Source: Pseudolabrys sp. (GTDB lineage Bacteria > Pseudomonadota > Alphaproteobacteria > Rhizobiales > Xanthobacteraceae). From it: 64,000 bases of DNA. This document shows positions 49,473-59,343 of this stretch, one piece after another. The position numbers were made by a program, and so were the translations under genes. The stretch covers positions 1 through 64,000 of the forward strand of contig JAFIGS010000032.1 in the NCBI GenBank assembly GCA_017849615.1, in the 5' to 3' direction. A model generated the notes under the pieces. It was not told the DNA's origin. It did no database searches and saw nothing but the letters and a program-made list of their open reading frames with translations. Numbering within the stretch: position 1 is the first letter of the stretch; each line of letters begins with the position of its first letter.

Positions 49473-49503
49473 CGGCCCCGCCTTGTGCGGGGCCGTTTGC
49501 TTT
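49473..49503 (+). terminator. Rho-independent-type terminator
   Basis: CGGCCCCGC-CTTGT-GCGGGGCCG (9-bp stem) is followed by TTTGCTTT. It ends the TRAP system 2 unit and lies at the 3' edge of the convergent znuB. Confidence 0.75.
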
Positions 49504-50299
49504 AGTGCGCGTGGCGGGCCGTCGGCCGAAAGGCCGCCGCGAAATAGACGAGCGCACTCAGGAGCGCGATGCAGAAGCTCACCGGCCAGTCGGTGTGATA
49601 GGCGATGGTGATGCCAAGCCAGGCTTCGGCGACCGCCAGCGCTGCGGCGAGAACGAGCCCGCTCCACAGCCCGTTGACGAGGCGCTGCGCCGCGGCCGCC
49701 GGGCCGACCATCAGCGCGAACACCATCAGCACGCCGACGATCTGGGCGCAGGCCGCCACCGCGAGCGCCACCAGCGCGAGGAACACCGTGGAGATGAAGC
49801 GCAGCGGCACGCCCTTGGCTTCGGCCAGTTCCGGCTGCAGCGTGGCGAAGATCAGCGGCCGCATGATCAGCGCGAGCAGCACCAGCGTCGCCGCGCCGAG
49901 CGCGGACAGCGCCTTGATCATTGCCAGATCGACCGCCAGCACATTGCCGAACAGCAGCGCGGTCGCCTGCGTCGCGAACGACGTGTAGTAATAGAGAAAC
50001 AGAATGCCGAAGCCGAGCGCCAGCGACAGCACCACGCCGATGGCGACGTCGCGATTGGCGAGCCGCTCGCCCATCATGCCCATGGCGATGCCGGCGATCA
50101 GCGTGAAGCCGACGAGGCCGGCGAGCGGCGACAGCCCGATCAGCCCGGCGCCGGTCGCGCCGGCGAACCCGATATGCGACAGCGCGTGGCCGGCGAAGGT
50201 CTGCCCGCGCATGACGAGGAAATAACCGGTCACGCCCGACACGACGGCGACGATGCCGGCGGCGATGAAGGCGTTGATGACGAAGTCGTATTGGAACAC
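49502..50299 (-). CDS. znuB: High-affinity zinc ABC transporter permease ZnuB
   Basis: 265 residues, 7-8 membrane helices, ABC-3 family. AGHALSHIGFAGATGAGLIG, the ABC-3 signature near the N-terminus, and MVGPAAAAQRLVNGLW near the end. It forms the membrane channel for Zn2+ with ZnuC and ZnuA. Its start lies 13 bases after znuC, so the two are cotranscribed. Related permeases can carry manganese, but the upstream Zur box points to zinc. Confidence 0.94.
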   Translation of the reverse strand: MFQYDFVINAFIAAGIVAVVSGVTGYFLVMRGQTFAGHALSHIGFAGATGAGLIGLSPLAGLVGFTLIAGIAMGMMGERLANRDVAIGVVLSLALGFGILFLYYYTSFATQATALLFGNVLAVDLAMIKALSALGAATLVLLALIMRPLIFATLQPELAEAKGVPLRFISTVFLALVALAVAACAQIVGVLMVFALMVGPAAAAQRLVNGLWSGLVLAAALAVAEAWLGITIAYHTDWPVSFCIALLSALVYFAAAFRPTARHAH

Positions 50300-50311
50300 G
50301 TTGCCGCTGCC

Positions 50312-51148
50312 TTAGTGGTGATGTCCGTGGTGCTCGTGGCCGTGCCCGTGATCGTGCATGTGCGCGTCGCGCTCGACATCGCGGCCGCGCGACATCACGA
50401 AGATATGCCCGGCGGCGCGCACCACTTCGATCTCGGTGTCATAGAGCGTCGACAGCACCGGCGCGGTCACCACCTCATCGACCGTGCCCAGCGCGGCGTG
50501 GCTATTGCCGAGGTAGAGCACCTTGTCGATGGCGCCGAGCAACTGGTTGAGCTCATGCGCCGAGAACAGAACCGTAATGCCGCGCTCGCGCGCGATTCTG
50601 CGCACGACGCCGATGACGACCTCCTGGTGCCGGGCGTCGAGGCTGATCAGCGGCTCGTCGAGCAGCAGCAGTTTCGGATTGCCCATCAGCGCCTGCGCCA
50701 GCAACAGGCGCTGGCGTTCGCCGCCCGACATCTCGGACAGCGGGCGGCGCGCGAGGTCGGCGGCGCCGACGGCGTCGAGCGTGTGTTCGATGGCGTCGCG
50801 GTCGGCCGCGCTCAGCGACGGCAGGCCCCAGCGCTCGCCGTGCAGCGAACTGGCGATGTAGTCGAGGCCGCGCACGCGCAGGTCCGGCAGCACGGTGCGC
50901 AGTTGCGGCAGGTAGCCGATGGCGGCATTGCCGCGCGCCGGAGGTGCGCCGAAGACGCGGAGCGTCCCCACGCTCGCGGGGACCAGGCCGAGGAGGGCCC
51001 GCATCAAGGTCGTTTTGCCGGCGCCGTTGGGGCCGAGCACGCCGATGAACTCGCCGGGCGCGATGGCGAAGCTGACGTCGCGCAGCACGGCGCGGCCGCC
51101 GATGGCGACGGTGGCGTGGTCGAGAGAGATGATGGGATGCTGTGTCAT
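50312..51148 (-). CDS. znuC: Zinc ABC transporter ATP-binding protein ZnuC
   Basis: 278 residues from the ATG at 51148. Walker A GPNGAGKTTL, signature LSEMSGGERQRLLLAQAL, Walker B LLLLDEPLISLD, and an H-loop. The C-terminus is His-rich (HDHGHGHEHHGHHH), a likely zinc-binding tail. The start codon lies within the terminal GTCATTCCGG of a REP element, with only CCGGA in front, so ribosome binding looks weak. Upstream reading frame is shadow sequence. Partner of ZnuB and ZnuA. Confidence 0.94.
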   Translation of the reverse strand: MTQHPIISLDHATVAIGGRAVLRDVSFAIAPGEFIGVLGPNGAGKTTLMRALLGLVPASVGTLRVFGAPPARGNAAIGYLPQLRTVLPDLRVRGLDYIASSLHGERWGLPSLSAADRDAIEHTLDAVGAADLARRPLSEMSGGERQRLLLAQALMGNPKLLLLDEPLISLDARHQEVVIGVVRRIARERGITVLFSAHELNQLLGAIDKVLYLGNSHAALGTVDEVVTAPVLSTLYDTEIEVVRAAGHIFVMSRGRDVERDAHMHDHGHGHEHHGHHH

Positions 51149-51219
51149 TCCGGGGCTCTTGCCGCCAGCGCGTTTACGCGCGTCTTCGACGCGCTGTGGC
51201 AAGAGAGCCCGGAATCCAG
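51144..51219. repeat. REP-like palindrome overlapping the znuC start
   Basis: GTCATTCCGGGGCTCTTGCC at 51144 and GGCAAGAGAGCCCGGAATCCAG ending at 51219 form a strong hairpin, with inner palindromes around CGCG. It separates znuA from znuC, and its left end contains the complement of the znuC start codon. Confidence 0.8.
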
Positions 51220-51250
51220 ACGCGGGCAAGAGGGCTGCCGCCGGGCTCGA

Positions 51251-52144
51251 TTACGCCCCCGGCTCGCTCAGCGCCTTGTCGAGCGCGTCGAGCTGGCCGA
51301 GCATCCAGTCCGTGAAGGACGTGTCGGCCGGCTGGGTCTCGGTGACGCCGACCACGGCAATCTTGTTGTCCCTGGCGATGTCCACGAGCCGCTGCGCCAG
51401 CTTCTCCGAGACCTGCGAATTGTAGAGCAGCGCCTTCACCTTGCGGGTCTTCAGGTCGGTCTCGAAGGCGGCGATGTCGCGGGCGCTGGGCTCGGATTCG
51501 TTCATCAGCGCCAGTTGGAATTTCTCGTTGCGCATGGTGAGGCCGAGCGCCTCGGCCATCAGGCCGAATACGGGCTCGGTGGCGGTGACCGGCTTGCCTT
51601 TGTGCTTGTCGCGAAGCTGGCCGACGCGCTGCGTGATGCGCTCGAGGTCGGCGAGCACCTTGTCGAGATTGGCGGCATAGTCGGCGGCGTTCGCCGCATC
51701 GGCCTTGCTGAAGGCCGCGGCCATGGCCTTGGCGACCGCCGGCATGGTCGCGGGGGCGTACCACAGATGCGGGTTGCCGCCGTGTTTGGCCTTGACGAGC
51801 TTGGCGGCCTCGACCGTGACGCGGTCCTTGCGCGGCGAGGCCTTGAGCAGCTTTTCCATCCACTCGTCGTAATGCCCGCCGTTGAAGATCACGACCTGGG
51901 CATCGGCAACCTGGCGCACCTGGCCGGGCGTCGCCTCGAAGGAATGCGGGTCCTGGTCCGGATTGGCGATGACGTTGAAAACGGCGACATGGGCGCCGCC
52001 GATCCGGGCGGCGATGCCGCCATAGAAGTTCTCGGCCGCCACGACCTTGAGCGGGCCGCCGCTGGTCTGGGCCTGTGCGGCTGCCAGGGGCAGGGCCAGC
52101 AGCGCGGCGAGGGCCGCGAAATGAAGGAAAGAGCGCGCGCGCAT
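51251..52144 (-). CDS. znuA: Zinc ABC transporter substrate-binding protein ZnuA
   Basis: 297 residues with a signal peptide (RARSFLHFAALAALLALPLA, cleavage near AQA-Q). Cluster A-I metal receptor: ENFYGGIAARIGG, NPDQDPHSFEATP with a ligand His, NGGHYDEWM with another, and NPHLWYAPATMPAVAKAM with the third. The usual His-rich loop is short or absent. It captures zinc in the periplasm. A Zur box 34 bases before the ATG shows repression by zinc. Confidence 0.94.
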   Translation of the reverse strand: MRARSFLHFAALAALLALPLAAAQAQTSGGPLKVVAAENFYGGIAARIGGAHVAVFNVIANPDQDPHSFEATPGQVRQVADAQVVIFNGGHYDEWMEKLLKASPRKDRVTVEAAKLVKAKHGGNPHLWYAPATMPAVAKAMAAAFSKADAANAADYAANLDKVLADLERITQRVGQLRDKHKGKPVTATEPVFGLMAEALGLTMRNEKFQLALMNESEPSARDIAAFETDLKTRKVKALLYNSQVSEKLAQRLVDIARDNKIAVVGVTETQPADTSFTDWMLGQLDALDKALSEPGA

Positions 52145-53831: not shown

Positions 53832-54299
53832 CTAGCCAAATCGTTTCGCCAGAACGTGGTCGAGCGACAGCGCTCCCGCGCCGCACGTCATCAGCAGCAG
53901 GCAGCAGGCCGCCCAGGTGCCGTGGGTCGGCCACGCGTCGGGATAGACGAAGATCTCGATCACGAGCGTCATGCCGAGCAGCGCCAGCGCCGAGAATCGC
54001 GTCGCCAGCCCCGCGATCAGCAGCACCGGAAACAGATGTTCGACGACGGCGGCGCCATAGGCCGCCACCACCGGGTCGAGCAGCGGCAGTCGATACTCGC
54101 TGCGGAATAGTTCGATCGCGTTTTCCGACAGGTGGAAGCCGTCGACCTTGGTCTGGCCGGATTGCCAGAACACGCCGGCGATGGCGATTCGCGTGAGCAG
54201 GGCAACAAACCAGTACGGAATGGCTTCCATCCAGGCGATGGCGCGCTTCAGCAGCGCAACCGGCATCGGCGTGGAGATTGCGGTCAGGCTCTGGCTCAT
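53832..54299 (-). CDS. DoxX-family membrane protein, bufferin operon
   Basis: 155 residues from the ATG at 54299, which overlaps the stop of the upstream bufC-type gene (ATGA). Four membrane segments; the first loop has RIAIAGVFWQSGQTKVDGF, the DoxX pattern, and a second-half GLATRFSALALLGMTLVIEI. DoxX proteins are the fourth gene in several bufferin (gig-type) operons. Its role there is not established; it may couple redox or respiratory components to peptide maturation. Confidence 0.88.
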   Translation of the reverse strand: MSQSLTAISTPMPVALLKRAIAWMEAIPYWFVALLTRIAIAGVFWQSGQTKVDGFHLSENAIELFRSEYRLPLLDPVVAAYGAAVVEHLFPVLLIAGLATRFSALALLGMTLVIEIFVYPDAWPTHGTWAACCLLLMTCGAGALSLDHVLAKRFG

Positions 54300-55084
54300 G
54301 ATGCGTGGTCCTTCGCGATCGTGGAGAGGTGCAGTGCGGTTGCCAATTCGCCGCCGATCAGCCCGGCGAGATTGACGGCCGGATCGAAGGCGGAGTCGGC
54401 GTTCGCCGCTTCGGCGGCCGCTTCGCCGAGCGGCGTGCCGCCGGCGAGCGCCTCGAGAAATGTCGCGCCGCCGGGCGGCAACCGGCGAACTTCGACGGCC
54501 CCGTGCGGCCGCGCGATGAGCGCATCCTCCCGCCCGCAATCCTCGATCGAGGCCGGCGCCATGCCGCCCGAATTCATCGACCAGATCGTCACCACCGGAA
54601 AGGCCGAGCGCACGACGCGCAGCGACGGATGCAACACGACGCGAAGATCGCCTAGCCTGTTCGCGTCGATGGTCTGCCAGGCAGCCGTATCGAGCGGCGC
54701 GGCATCGGCCGCGTGATAGGCCTGCGTGCGCGCGAATTCGAGCCGCGCCACGTCGGCGAGATAGGGGATTGCCGCGGCCGGCTCGAACCGCGCGACGAAA
54801 GCCGGAAAGCGTTCGCCATAGTTCATCATCACCGGCGAGCACGGCGGCTCGCTGGACACATAGATGCGCGCCAGCGCCGCGAAGAATTCCGTGCCGACGA
54901 TTCGTTCGGTCGCCGGAAACTGCGCGCGCATGGCTTCGCTCAAGCCGACGATGACATTGTTGCGATAGACCGCGAAGCGCTTCTGCGGCGAACGCCCCGT
55001 ATGCGACGCGACGGTCTGCGGCACGGCCCGATCGGAATCGAGCAGGGCGCCCGCGAACTGGTTCTGTATTCGGAATGCGCTCAT
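54296..55084 (-). CDS. bufC: BufC/HvfC family maturation partner (DUF2063)
   Basis: 262 residues from the ATG at 55084, which overlaps the stop of the DUF692 gene (TGATG). KRFAVYRNNVIVGLSEAMRAQFP and FPATERIVG...FFAALARIYV are the DUF2063 pattern; GERFPAFVARFEPAAAIPYLADVARLE is its second half. DUF2063 proteins partner DUF692 enzymes and recruit the RiPP precursor. Position between the maturase and DoxX gene fits a buf operon. Confidence 0.9.
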   Translation of the reverse strand: MSAFRIQNQFAGALLDSDRAVPQTVASHTGRSPQKRFAVYRNNVIVGLSEAMRAQFPATERIVGTEFFAALARIYVSSEPPCSPVMMNYGERFPAFVARFEPAAAIPYLADVARLEFARTQAYHAADAAPLDTAAWQTIDANRLGDLRVVLHPSLRVVRSAFPVVTIWSMNSGGMAPASIEDCGREDALIARPHGAVEVRRLPPGGATFLEALAGGTPLGEAAAEAANADSAFDPAVNLAGLIGGELATALHLSTIAKDHAS

Positions 55085-55941
55085 CACGCCGCCTCCTGCG
55101 CCGCGGCGCGGTCGAGAATACGGGCCGCGGCCCGTGCTTCATCGGCGAGCACCGGCCAGGCCGGCACGTCGTTGTCCCACTCGATCAGGGTCGCGACCGG
55201 CCCGGTACGGGCGATGACGGCCTCGTAAAGCGCCCAGACCGGATCGGCGACCGGCGTGCCGTGCGCGTCGATCAGAAGCGGCGCGCCGGCATCGTCGCTC
55301 TGCGCGTCGTGGCCGCCGAGATGGATTTCCTTGATTTGTGAAAGCGGAAAGACGCTCAGATAGGCCGCCGGATCGGTGCCGTGATTGACGGCGCTGACAA
55401 AGACGTTGTTGACGTCGAGCAGCAGGCCGCAACCGGTGCGCCGCGTCACCGCGTTGAGAAATTCGGTTTCCGGAATCGTGCTGTCGACGAAGGTGACGTA
55501 GGTCGACGGATTTTCCAGCAGCATTTCGCGCCCAAGCGCGTTCTGCACCGTGTCGATGTGTTCGCACACGCGCGCCAGCGTTTCTTCGGTGTAAGGCAGC
55601 GGCAGCAGGTCGTTGTAGAAGAATTCGCCGTGCGACGACCACGCCAGGTGCTCGGAAAAGCTCTGCGGCTGATGCCGGTCGCACAGGGTTTTCACTCGCT
55701 TGAGATGGGCGCGGTCGAGCGGACCGGCGCCGCCGATCGACAGGCCGACGCCATGCACCGAAAGCGCGAACCGCTCGCGCAATGCATTGAGCTGAGCATG
55801 CGCCGGCCCGCCATCGCCCATGTAGTTCTCGGCATGAATTTCGATGAAGCCGACAGGCGCATCGCCGGCAAGAATGCCGGCGAAGTGTTGCGGCTTGAAG
55901 CCGACGCCGGCGCGGGCGGGAAGTGACGAGGCAATTGGCAT
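55084..55941 (-). CDS. bufB: DUF692/MNIO-family multinuclear iron oxidase, bufferin maturase
   Basis: 285 residues, TIM-barrel. Metal-ligand segments [51 protein letters not shown] and IHLGGH are all present, as expected for MbnB/TglH/BufB enzymes that carry two or three iron ions. These enzymes modify cysteines of RiPP precursors, giving thiooxazole in bufferins (literature). It follows the DUF2282 precursor by 60 bases, which is its probable substrate. Confidence 0.94.
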
Positions 55942-56004
55942 GACGAGCGCTCGCGTGAATGAAAAGTCGGGAGGCGCGTGGATCGCGCGCCTCCCGATGG
56001 TCGA

Positions 56005-56295
56005 TCAGCTCTTGATCGGCGTGAGCGAGCCCATGCCCTTCGGCGTGCTCATCGTGGCGCAGGTGCCCTTGGCGACGTACTTCCAGGCATTACCCTGGTA
56101 GTCCACCTTGGAGGTGCCGGCGCAGGTGGTGCCGGGGCCGGCGGCACAGTCGTTCTTGCCGGCGAGCGAGACGCCGTAGCATTTGTCGGCGTTGGCCTGG
56201 ACCGGCGCCGGGCCGGCGGACGCGACCGAGATCATGGTGAAGGCGGCGGCCAGCGAACCGGCGAGCGTCGTGGCGGCGATGGCAGTCTTGGTCAT
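56005..56295 (-). CDS. bufA: Bufferin precursor peptide (DUF2282, BufA1-like)
   Basis: 96 residues from the ATG at 56295; the longer frame upstream has no signal peptide and spans the promoter. Signal peptide with cleavage after A25-S26-A27 (VASA-GP). Mature part has four cysteines, C39 (DKCYGV), C50 (KNDCA), C58 (TTCAG) and C79 (KGTCA), spaced as in DUF2282. The SAGKNDCA-type and KGTC motifs are typical. In Caulobacter such peptides bind copper after modification by BufB. It is the first gene of the operon and follows an ECF-type promoter. Confidence 0.93.
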
Positions 56296-56363
56296 GGGAT
56301 AGTCCTTCCTCGTGAGGGCGTTTGACACAGTGGGCGCGGTATACTTCCGGCTCACATGCGGTC

Positions 56364-56391
56364 TTTCGCGCCGAAGCCCTCGCTTGTTACA
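56364..56391 (-). promoter_or_regulatory. ECF sigma-type promoter of the bufferin operon
   Basis: On the minus strand: TGTAACA (56391-56385) and CGAAA (56368-56364), 17 bases between TGTAAC and CGAA. The pattern resembles the GTAAC..CGAA promoters of Caulobacter sigma-F. About 60 bases lie between it and the bufA start. Confidence 0.72.
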
Positions 56392-56446
56392 TCGCTCACG
56401 TTTTTGTGTTGCCGCGCCTCGGGTACTCATTTTTTTCGTCGAAGCA

Positions 56447-56472
56447 TGTAACAACGACGCGCATCATCCGAA
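56447..56472 (+). promoter_or_regulatory. ECF sigma-type promoter of the sigma factor operon
   Basis: TGTAACA (56447-56453) and CGAA (56469-56472), 16 bases between TGTAAC and CGAA. It is the mirror partner of the bufferin promoter and lies 20 bases before the sigma factor TTG start. Autoregulation is inferred. Confidence 0.7.
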
Positions 56473-56491
56473 TGAAGATGAAGGAGCGGGC

Positions 56492-57031
56492 TTGAGCGAC
56501 GCTGGCTGGTCAGACCTGATGCGCGCCGCCAATGCCGGCGATGCGGAGGCTTACGGCCGTCTGCTGCACGCGATTGCGGCGGCGCTGCGCGCGCCGATAC
56601 GGCGCAACCTGTTACGCGCGGGGCGCTCCGCCGCCGACGTCGAGGATGTGGTTCAGGAGGTTCTGCTTGCCGTGCATCTGAAGCGCCATACATGGGACAG
56701 CGAGCGCCCGGTCGGGCCATGGGTGCACGCCATCGCCCGCTACAAGGTGGTCGATGCATTGCGCCGGCGCACCGGACAATTCGATCTGTCGATCGATGAA
56801 TTCTCCGAGACGCTGGCGGCGGAGGAGCCCGAGCCGTCCGTGCCGGCGAGTGAGGTCGAGCGCCATCTGGCGACACTGCCGGCCGGCCAGCGCACGGTGG
56901 TTCAGGCGATCGCGGTCGAAGGCCGCTCGATCGGCGAAGCGGCGGAGCGGCTGAGCATGACGGCGGGCGCCGTCCGGGTGGCGTTGCATCGCGGCCTTGC
57001 GGCGCTGGCGAAACAATTGGGACAGGACTGA
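56492..57031 (+). CDS. ECF RNA polymerase sigma factor, SigF-like
   Basis: 179 residues from a TTG at 56492, with AAGGAG six bases upstream; the longer ORF upstream would run through the promoter. Region 2 with ADVEDVVQEVLLAVHLKRHTW-like sequence and RPVGPWVHAIARYKVVDALRRR; region 4 with LPAGQRTVVQAIAVEGRSIG and HTH AGAVRVALHRGLAAL. It belongs to the SigF/NrsF group by its downstream DUF1109 gene. A sigma factor of this type responds to heavy-metal/oxidative stress in Caulobacter. Likely drives bufA and itself. Confidence 0.93.
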   Translation: MSDAGWSDLMRAANAGDAEAYGRLLHAIAAALRAPIRRNLLRAGRSAADVEDVVQEVLLAVHLKRHTWDSERPVGPWVHAIARYKVVDALRRRTGQFDLSIDEFSETLAAEEPEPSVPASEVERHLATLPAGQRTVVQAIAVEGRSIGEAAERLSMTAGAVRVALHRGLAALAKQLGQD

Positions 57032-57033
57032 CG

Positions 57034-57669
57034 ATGCGAACGGACGATCTGGTACAGGCCCTGGTGGCCGATCGCGCGACGGCGCCGCCGCTCGGTACGC
57101 AGTTCGCCTGGGCGCTCGCCGCGGGGCTTGTGCTGTCGGCGGCCGGATTTCTGCTGGTGCTCGGCCCGCGTCCGGATATCGGCGGGGCGGTGGGCACGAT
57201 CCGGTTCGACATCAAGATCGTCCAGGTTCTCCTGCTGGCGGTGACCGCCTTCACGCTGGTTCTGCAGATCGGCCGCCCGACGGCCGTGCACAGAGGCCGG
57301 GTGGCCGCACTCGCCATCGCGCCGGTCCTGCTGCTTCTTGCTGTCGGCGCCGAATTGATGGTCGTCCCGGCGGACCGGTGGCCGGTCAGGCTGGTGGGCA
57401 CCAATTCGCGCGTTTGCCTGACCGCGATCCCCCTGATGGCGCTGCCGCTGCTGGCGGCGTTCCTGATCGTGCTCAGGCGCGGTGCGCCGGCCTCGGGCGC
57501 TGTCGCGGGCGCAGTGGCCGGGCTAGCCGCCAGCGCCGCGGCGGCGGTGCTTTACGCCACGCATTGTCCGGACGATTCGCCGCTTTTCGTCGCCGTCTGG
57601 TACCCGATCGCCATCGGTGGCGTGACCCTGGCCGGGGCCCTGTTGGGCCGTTTTCTGCTGCGCTGGTAA
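57034..57669 (+). CDS. nrsF: NrsF-type anti-sigma factor (DUF1109)
   Basis: 211 residues with six membrane segments, starting two bases after the sigma gene. DUF1109 features are the N-terminal short cytoplasmic region (RTDDLVQALVADRA) and GTNSRVCLTAIPLMALPLL. Two cysteines, C128 and C178 (YATHCPDDSPLF), correspond in spacing to the conserved pair of NrsF that mediates metal/oxidant response in Caulobacter. It holds the sigma factor at the membrane until stress is sensed. Confidence 0.9.
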   Translation: MRTDDLVQALVADRATAPPLGTQFAWALAAGLVLSAAGFLLVLGPRPDIGGAVGTIRFDIKIVQVLLLAVTAFTLVLQIGRPTAVHRGRVAALAIAPVLLLLAVGAELMVVPADRWPVRLVGTNSRVCLTAIPLMALPLLAAFLIVLRRGAPASGAVAGAVAGLAASAAAAVLYATHCPDDSPLFVAVWYPIAIGGVTLAGALLGRFLLRW

Positions 57670-57894: not shown

Positions 57895-58164
57895 ATGATC
57901 AAGAAGGTGTTGGCGGTCGCTGCATTGGCCCTCGCGCTCGGCGGTTGTGAAACTGCGCGTCAGGATCGCGTTGCGGGCGGTGCGCTCATCGGTGGCGGCA
58001 CTGGCGCGCTGATCGGCGGTCTGGCCTCGAATTCGGTCGGCGGCGCGGTTGCCGGCGGTCTCATCGGCGCGGCGGCGGGCGGCATCATTGCCGACGCGAC
58101 CCGTCCGGGCCGCTGCTACTACCACGACCGTTACGGCAATCGCCGTTACGTGCGCTGCCGCTAA
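57895..58164 (+). CDS. Glycine-zipper lipoprotein
   Basis: 89 residues from the ATG at 57895. Lipoprotein signal (IKKVLAVAALALALGGCETA, lipobox LGGC). The middle is Gly/Ala-rich with a repeated G-xxx-G zipper (GGALIGGGTGALIGGLAS). A short basic tail has CYYHDRYGNRRYVRC. Outer-membrane or inner-leaflet location inferred. Similar to small 17-kDa antigen-like proteins of alphaproteobacteria. Confidence 0.88.
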   Translation: MIKKVLAVAALALALGGCETARQDRVAGGALIGGGTGALIGGLASNSVGGAVAGGLIGAAAGGIIADATRPGRCYYHDRYGNRRYVRCR

Positions 58165-58217: not shown

Positions 58218-58293
58218 ATTTCCGGCGCGGGAATTCGGCTTTTGCACCCCCGGCGCCGAACCCCTATATGTGCGCGGCAAGGAGCCCATTTCC

Positions 58294-59343
58294 ATGACCG
58301 ACGCCACTTCCGCGGCCGATCCGGCCGGCAAGATCCCCGTTACCGTGCTCACCGGCTACCTCGGCGCCGGCAAGACCACTTTGCTCAACCGCATCCTGAC
58401 CGAGCCGCACGGCCAGAAGTTCGCCGTCATCGTCAACGAATTCGGCGAAATCGGCATCGACAACGACCTCGTGGTGGACGCCGACGAGGAAGTGTTCGAG
58501 ATGAACAATGGCTGCATCTGCTGCACGGTGCGCGGCGATCTCGTCCGCATCATCGACGGCCTGATGCGCCGCAAGGGCAAGTTCGACGCCATCATCGTCG
58601 AGACCACGGGCCTCGCCGATCCGGCGCCGGTCGCGCAGACCTTCTTCATGGACGAGAATGTCGGCGCCAAGACCAAGCTCGACGCCGTCGTCACGGTCGC
58701 CGACGCCAAGTGGCTCAAGGACCGGCTCAAGGATGCGCCGGAAGCCAAGAACCAGATCGCCTTCGCCGACGTCATCGTGCTCAACAAGACCGATCTCGTC
58801 ACCCCGGCCGAACTCGACGAGGTCGAGGCGCGCATTCGCGGCATCAATCCTTACGCCACCATGCATCGCACCGAACGTGCGCAGGTCGCCATCAAGGACG
58901 TGCTCGGCCGCAACGCCTTCGATCTCGACCGCATTCTCGAAATCGAGCCGGAATTCCTGACGGCGGACGACCACGATCATCATCATGACCATGGCCACGA
59001 TCACGACCATCATCACCATCATCACGGCCTCAAGCACTATCACGACGAGGAGATGCAATCGATTTCCATGTCGTCGGAGAAGCCGCTCAATCCGGACAAG
59101 TTCTTCCCGTGGATTCAGGAGCTGGTGCAGACCGAGGGCAAGGACATCCTGCGCTGCAAGGGCATCCTGTCGTTCAAGGACGACGACGAGCGCTTCGTGT
59201 TCCAGGGCGTGCACATGATCCTGGACGGCGACCACCAGCGCAAATGGAAGGACGGCGAGGCGCGCATCAGCCGCGCCGTGTTCATCGGCCGCCATCTGCC
59301 GGAAGAGAAAATCCGCAAGGGCTTCGAGAGCTGCGTGGCTTAG
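58294..59343 (+). CDS. CobW-family GTPase (zinc/metal chaperone)
   Basis: 349 residues from the ATG at 58294, with AAGGAG upstream. G1 [13 protein letters not shown] (residues 21-33), CxCC metal motif (C74, C76, C77 in [10 protein letters not shown]), switch region [11 protein letters not shown] and NKTD specificity motif, then a His-rich loop at about 225-250 ([18 protein letters not shown]) and a C-terminal CobW domain. Metallochaperone that delivers zinc or cobalt to targets, GTP-dependent. No Zur box is visible upstream. The WD40 gene is 10 bases downstream. Confidence 0.94.

Follow-up and report, generated by a model that had tools for sequence, protein, structure and literature searches.

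Does the extracytoplasmic function (ECF) sigma factor encoded back to back with a bufferin operon in Pseudolabrys sp. control that operon, and which signal would release it? The locus lies in the window, the whole 64,000-nucleotide stretch analysed here (contig JAFIGS010000032.1), where a set of six genes spans positions 53832 (doxX stop) to 57669 (nrsF stop), outer limits that are exact in the reading-frame list. The genes bufA, bufB, bufC and doxX are read leftward, while the sigma factor gene sigF and nrsF are read divergently, to the right. Very probably, the locus is a Buf1 bufferin cluster controlled by a sigma/anti-sigma switch of the ECF16 type, of the same kind as Caulobacter CC3252-CC3257. 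The genes, their families, the two promoter sequences with their conservation and the conserved cysteines are read directly from the DNA and its relatives, and are laid out as follows.

53832..54299, minus strand: doxX, the operon's last gene, DoxX-family membrane protein (Pfam DoxX, 2.6e-17)
54296..55087, minus strand: bufC, DUF2063 partner of the MNIO, GTG start (Pfam DUF2063, 8.1e-26)
55084..55941, minus strand: bufB, MNIO (DUF692) oxidase, bufferin maturase (Pfam MbnB_TglH_ChrH, 2.7e-107)
56005..56295, minus strand: bufA, DUF2282 (Buf1) precursor of 96 amino acids (Pfam DUF2282, 3.1e-24)
56365..56391, minus strand: SigF-type promoter towards bufA, TGTAACAAGCGAGGGCTTCGGCGCGAA (motif scan of the genome)
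56447..56472, plus strand: SigF-type promoter towards sigF, TGTAACAACGACGCGCATCATCCGAA (motif scan of the genome)
56492..57031, plus strand: sigF, ECF sigma factor of 179 amino acids (Pfam Sigma70_r2/r4, ~5e-11)
57034..57669, plus strand: nrsF, membrane anti-sigma factor of 211 amino acids with C128 and C178 (Pfam NrsF, 6e-53)

The initial annotation had placed these six families here, and the reading frames and Pfam matches (2.6e-17 to 2.7e-107) bear it out, as they do the cysteines that it had counted: the four of BufA (C39, C50, C58 and C79) are all kept in 38/38 orthologues, and those of NrsF are kept in 38/38 (C128) and 37/38 (C178). The N-terminus of BufA, judged by eye, resembles a Sec-type signal peptide. 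BufB passes the NCBIfam MNIO_BufB 'bufferin maturase' model (382.9 bits, cut-off 310) and SigF passes PRK12512 (255.6 bits, cut-off 198). Across 37 BufB proteins, 24 His, Glu, Asp or Asn positions are kept in every one and one further position in 36; relatives of BufB with solved structures are 3bww, 8hci and MbnB. Both the bufB/bufC and the bufC/doxX overlaps are of 4 bases (the second with the doxX start, 54299, picked by eye in an open frame that extends to 55142), which suggests a single operon for the leftward genes. On the other side, 2 bases separate the sigF stop from the nrsF start; the sigF start, a TTG with GAAGGAG before it, was also picked by eye. A profile search of the genome, with DUF2282 as the only bufferin-like precursor family covered, found one DUF2282 gene, two MNIO genes and one NrsF. 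The second MNIO-family gene is distant (L029, G000:C35:184288-184896; 129 bits, open frame of 323 amino acids), resembles 8hci of the DUF692 family by eye and is followed by an open frame of ~300 amino acids. A defence-system reading was also tried and rejected, none of the six proteins matching PADLOC at E 0.001.

Between bufA and sigF, a TGTAAC-N17-CGAA sequence faces bufA (56391 to 56365, minus strand) and a TGTAAC-N16-CGAA sequence faces sigF (56447 to 56472, plus strand), the two copies pointing outwards 55 bp apart. A target promoter of the GTAAC(C)-N16-CGAA type is thus present upstream of both genes, with the sigF-side spacing one base shorter; the common pattern claimed for the two directions is there, but not with identical spacing (N17 vs N16). 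In the 4.4-Mb genome, TGTAAC-N16..18-CGAA occurs at 5 sites, compared with 26 for the reversed control, and two of the five are the bufA/sigF pair. The end of the bufA-side promoter lies 69 nt from the bufA start codon, which fits Caulobacter, where the mapped start site is 61 nt before the start codon (PMC3511200).

To place the locus among its relatives, we used 297 genomes of the order, each >=90% complete, of which 149 contain DUF2282 and 130 an NrsF (126 over the family cut-off). In 33 places the two genes are close and divergent; these were picked by eye from two match tables, a lower bound, and four further genomes with DUF2282 and NrsF ~3 kb apart on one strand stand outside the 33. 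The divergent layout is therefore found in at least 32 of the 297 genomes, and the divergent bufferin/sigF-nrsF linkage is seen in many families of the order. Within the 33 stretches, BufA and SigF are divergent in 32, BufB is present in 31 and all six genes in 29. The exceptions are a stretch that ends at a contig end (L108) and two that, over the stretch examined, have no DoxX match (L093) or neither BufC nor DoxX match (L096). A further stretch (L114, G238:C10:9000-14000) carries bufA-bufB-bufC-doxX and a divergent nrsF, but its 5 kb gave no match to SigF, perhaps a variant in which the sigma gene was lost or moved. Two tandem copies of bufA stand beside the sigma/NrsF pair in L095, L096, L097 and L108. 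Closer to the window, 12 of 35 other genomes of the genus have an NrsF match; the full set is found in five of the seven high-scoring stretches that were taken at greater length, the other two, both from genome G016, being without bufferin genes, and two lower-scoring stretches (L014, L017) have a BufA match within ~1.5 kb of NrsF. In an NrsF-protein scan of named genomes, the loci confirmed among the matches listed are those of Methylocella silvestris and Reyranella aquatilis.

The window, 32 of the 33 order stretches and five of the seven genus stretches yielded 38 orthologous gaps between bufA and sigF, leaving out L114 (no SigF match), L124 (no BufA match) and L125 (neither) in the stretch examined. 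The strict motif, with N15..18, was found on the sigF side of 11 gaps and on the bufA side of 12, compared with 0.025 and 0.015 expected. A relaxed form, GTAAC-N16..18-CGWA, was found on the sigF side in 34/38, on the bufA side in 33/38 and on both in 30/38, the corresponding expectations from first-order random sequences being 0.10, 0.11 and 0.0 and the reversed pattern giving 1 and 0. The relaxed form was chosen after seeing the strict results, and it was applied unchanged to both the random and the reversed control. At the -10 element, the sigF side reads CGTA in 17 gaps and CGAA in 17, while the bufA side reads CGAA in 31 of 33.

We infer the mechanism, namely its chemistry, copper binding, sigma release and inducer, from published relatives; homology covers every part of the locus, promoters included. 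At rest, membrane-bound NrsF would hold SigF. Metal stress would make NrsF release SigF; the likeliest trigger is excess copper, sensed through the pair of conserved cysteines. Free SigF would then read both divergent promoters, driving bufA-bufB-bufC-doxX and, perhaps to a modest degree, sigF-nrsF. In BufA, the two central cysteines, C50 and C58, would be oxidised to thiooxazoles by BufB together with BufC, while C39 and C79 on the outside would join as a disulfide; once exported, the peptide would buffer periplasmic copper.

The mechanism comes from the published counterpart in Caulobacter, where CC3252-CC3257 was described in 2012 as a metal-stress regulon controlled by SigF and NrsF. As reported there, SigF under dichromate controls CC3254-3257 and CC2907-2905 through the binding sequence GTAACC-N16-CGAA, promoter deletions were tested, NrsF (CC3252) counteracts SigF in a way that depends on C131 and C181, and chromium stress releases SigF into the cytoplasm (PMC3511200). 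In 2021 the regulon was reported as copper-induced in all tested conditions, with a copper-sensitive sigF::Tn5 mutant (PMC8224329). A 2025 survey describes sigma and NrsF genes in Buf1, not Buf2, clusters, modification of the central cysteines of Buf1 with the outer ones in a disulfide, and chelation of Cu(I) and Cu(II) by the thiooxazoles of Caulobacter Buf1 (PMC12452194); 5-thiooxazole was described in related clusters in 2026 (PMC13097082). Bufferin maturation, NrsF as an anti-sigma factor and one sigma factor for both promoters, as first proposed, are accordingly well supported by homology, conservation and the Caulobacter work. The wiring itself is not new, being published for Caulobacter (PMC3511200, PMC8224329) and, as sigma/NrsF genes in Buf1 clusters, in the survey (PMC12452194), and much of the testing plan of the initial annotation has already been carried out in Caulobacter.

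Several observations weigh against this explanation. The NCBIfam models for NrsF, HvfC and HvfX are matched only below their cut-offs (AntiSigF_NrsF at 94.9 bits, cut-off 300; HvfX-family maturation protein, by the doxX product, at 48.8 bits, cut-off 80). The strict motif occurs in both directions in just 5 of the 38 gaps, and the relaxed motif is missing from 4 of them on the sigF side and from 5 on the bufA side. Position 178 is a histidine in 3 of 40 bufferin-linked NrsF proteins, which indicates that C178 is not strictly required for bufferin linkage. Strong self-activation of SigF, as first proposed, is not to be taken for granted: sigF and nrsF of Caulobacter rose with copper (PMC8224329), but sigF is described as 'not strongly auto-regulated' under dichromate (PMC3511200). 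Finally, related sigma/anti-sigma pairs elsewhere answer H2O2 or HOCl (PMC3420878, PMC8315932).

This last point leads to the strongest alternative, that of the same circuit with another signal: NrsF would sense oxidants such as peroxide or hypochlorous acid, and the bufferin would be made in an oxidative-stress response. The closest case is EcfF/OsrA of Bradyrhizobium japonicum, like the window an ECF group 16 sigma factor (a label taken from PMC3420878 and PMC8315932) with a DUF1109 anti-sigma factor and two matching cysteines. C129 and C179 of OsrA match C128 and C178 of the window protein, C129 being required for binding and C179 for the H2O2 response (PMC3420878), and in Brucella a pair belonging to this group responds to HOCl (PMC8315932). 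Unlike the proposed switch of the window, however, EcfF answers H2O2 and singlet oxygen and controls methionine-sulfoxide reductases, and the main text on it has no mention of DUF692, DUF2282 or DoxX (PMC3420878). The bufferin-linked Caulobacter pair, in contrast, responded at most twofold to H2O2, t-butyl hydroperoxide, paraquat and diamide and was induced by Cr and Cd (PMC3511200) and by Cu (PMC8224329). Metal stress as the signal, as initially annotated, is carried over to the window by analogy, with the H2O2 response of OsrA on the other side; taken together, we regard an oxidant signal as unlikely.

The relationships of the NrsF proteins bear on the same question. We built a tree of 76 distinct NrsF proteins, a selection by score and linkage that is not representative, on which the bufferin-linked label changes 6 times, compared with 25.5 in shuffles. 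The window NrsF sits in a group of 36 rows, 35 of them bufferin-linked (support 87/88, not starred), and the smallest well-supported sets around it (3 and 6 rows) consist entirely of bufferin-linked proteins; it lies outside the small set that includes the four rows of genus g26, and these four have 11-13 methionines as against 2 past the start in the window protein. We assume that genus g26, which belongs to the same family as the window genome, may be Bradyrhizobium. C128 is kept in all 76 proteins, and position 178 is a histidine in 7 of the 36 that are not bufferin-linked. Bufferin-linked proteins have on average 3.5 methionines (n=40) and the others 7.5 (n=36; Mann-Whitney p 7e-7, uncorrected for kinship). 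As a marker of the signal, methionine content gained no support from independent pairs on the tree and stays a lead. It is conceivable, though rather doubtful, that bufferin-linked NrsF proteins form a copper-tuned branch of ECF16 anti-sigma factors apart from the oxidant-sensing OsrA type, so that the linked product would predict the signal; if so, the methionine-poor NrsF of the window would be a clean member of that branch.

That the two halves are chance neighbours, the sigma factor having no control over the bufferin operon, is scarcely credible: 36 of the 76 NrsF proteins (in that selected set) have no BufA match within ~1.5 kb and many genomes have DUF2282 without NrsF or the reverse, but the motif is shared in both directions far above chance, the bufferin/NrsF linkage turns up in many of the order's families and SigF control was directly proven in Caulobacter (PMC3511200).

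If SigF does drive a copper-responsive Buf1 operon, does it drive anything else? The initial annotation had called the locus 'self-contained', which a search for further SigF targets did not establish. The relaxed pattern GTAAC-N16..17-CGWA gives 21 sites genome-wide, fewer than the reversed control (127), and the strict sites L023 and L024 have longer spacing. An open frame of >=150 amino acids overlaps 20 of the 21 sites, both bufA/sigF promoters among them, so such overlap is useless as a filter. At nine sites, including that pair, a frame of >=90 amino acids starts within 150 bp downstream, and two of the seven others were chosen by eye for comparison with relatives. One (G000:C31:30637-30662; L027, L147) lies 16 nt before the start of a rhodanese-like gene; it is kept in genome G033, has changed in G004 and is absent from the 75 upstream bases examined in G013 and G012. 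The other, upstream of a protein of 141 amino acids (L144), is broken in G004. Conservation was not demonstrated for either site among the few relatives compared. Four Oxidored_molyb (msrP-like) genes were also located in the genome.

The locus has neighbours of its own. On the minus strand, 49502-52144 encodes the permease, the ATPase (whose tail is His-rich) and the substrate-binding protein of a zinc/manganese-type ATP-binding cassette importer (best NCBIfam matches all below cut-off), which had no match in the short stretches of relatives examined. On the plus strand, 58288-59343 encodes a GTPase of the CobW type that contains a His-rich stretch; its gene adjoins the bufferin locus in G004 and G033 too. 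With the importer and the CobW-type gene on either side, the bufferin locus belongs to a neighbourhood of metal-homeostasis genes. The gap from nrsF to the CobW gene holds a small plus-strand gene (57895-58164) with weak glycine-zipper matches below cut-off, kept in the same two genomes.

Taken globally, the locus is real, well conserved and of a published kind, a good but ordinary example whose value lies in showing that many families of one order have the divergent sigF-nrsF/bufABC-doxX arrangement, with a SigF-type promoter in each direction. With one DUF2282 bufferin and one NrsF, it also offers a simple system for asking whether NrsF responds to metals or oxidants.

Among known systems, the gig operons found in Cupriavidus metallidurans and Legionella are termed bufferin clusters (PMC12452194); they respond to gold and copper. 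In the methanobactin system MbnA/MbnB/MbnC, as in bufferins, an MNIO and its partner modify cysteines of a copper-binding peptide, but methanobactins serve copper acquisition and bufferins protection (PMC12452194); MbnB matches BufB weakly, and BufB scores far below the cut-off of the NCBIfam MbnB model (52.2 bits, cut-off 325). Caulobacter crescentus/vibrioides CC3252-CC3257 shares with the window six genes of the same families (nrsF, sigF, DUF2282, DUF692, DUF2063 and doxX) in the same order. To judge from the gene numbering and the separate promoters, the Caulobacter genes are probably divergent as well. The Caulobacter Buf1 peptide was reportedly characterised in a 2024 paper on bufferins, and CC3254, judging from its family, would be that peptide. 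The promoter is GTAACC-N16-CGAA in Caulobacter and GTAACA-N16-CGAA towards bufA in the window, and C131/C181 of Caulobacter NrsF correspond to C128/C178. In Caulobacter, SigF also controls a second operon of this type (CC2907-2905), and its regulon includes a YedY/MsrP-type gene (PMC3511200), whereas the window genome gave one DUF2282 gene and no further target with demonstrated conservation among the two candidates followed; the window presents the published copper-stress circuit in another genus, as a compact example in one locus.

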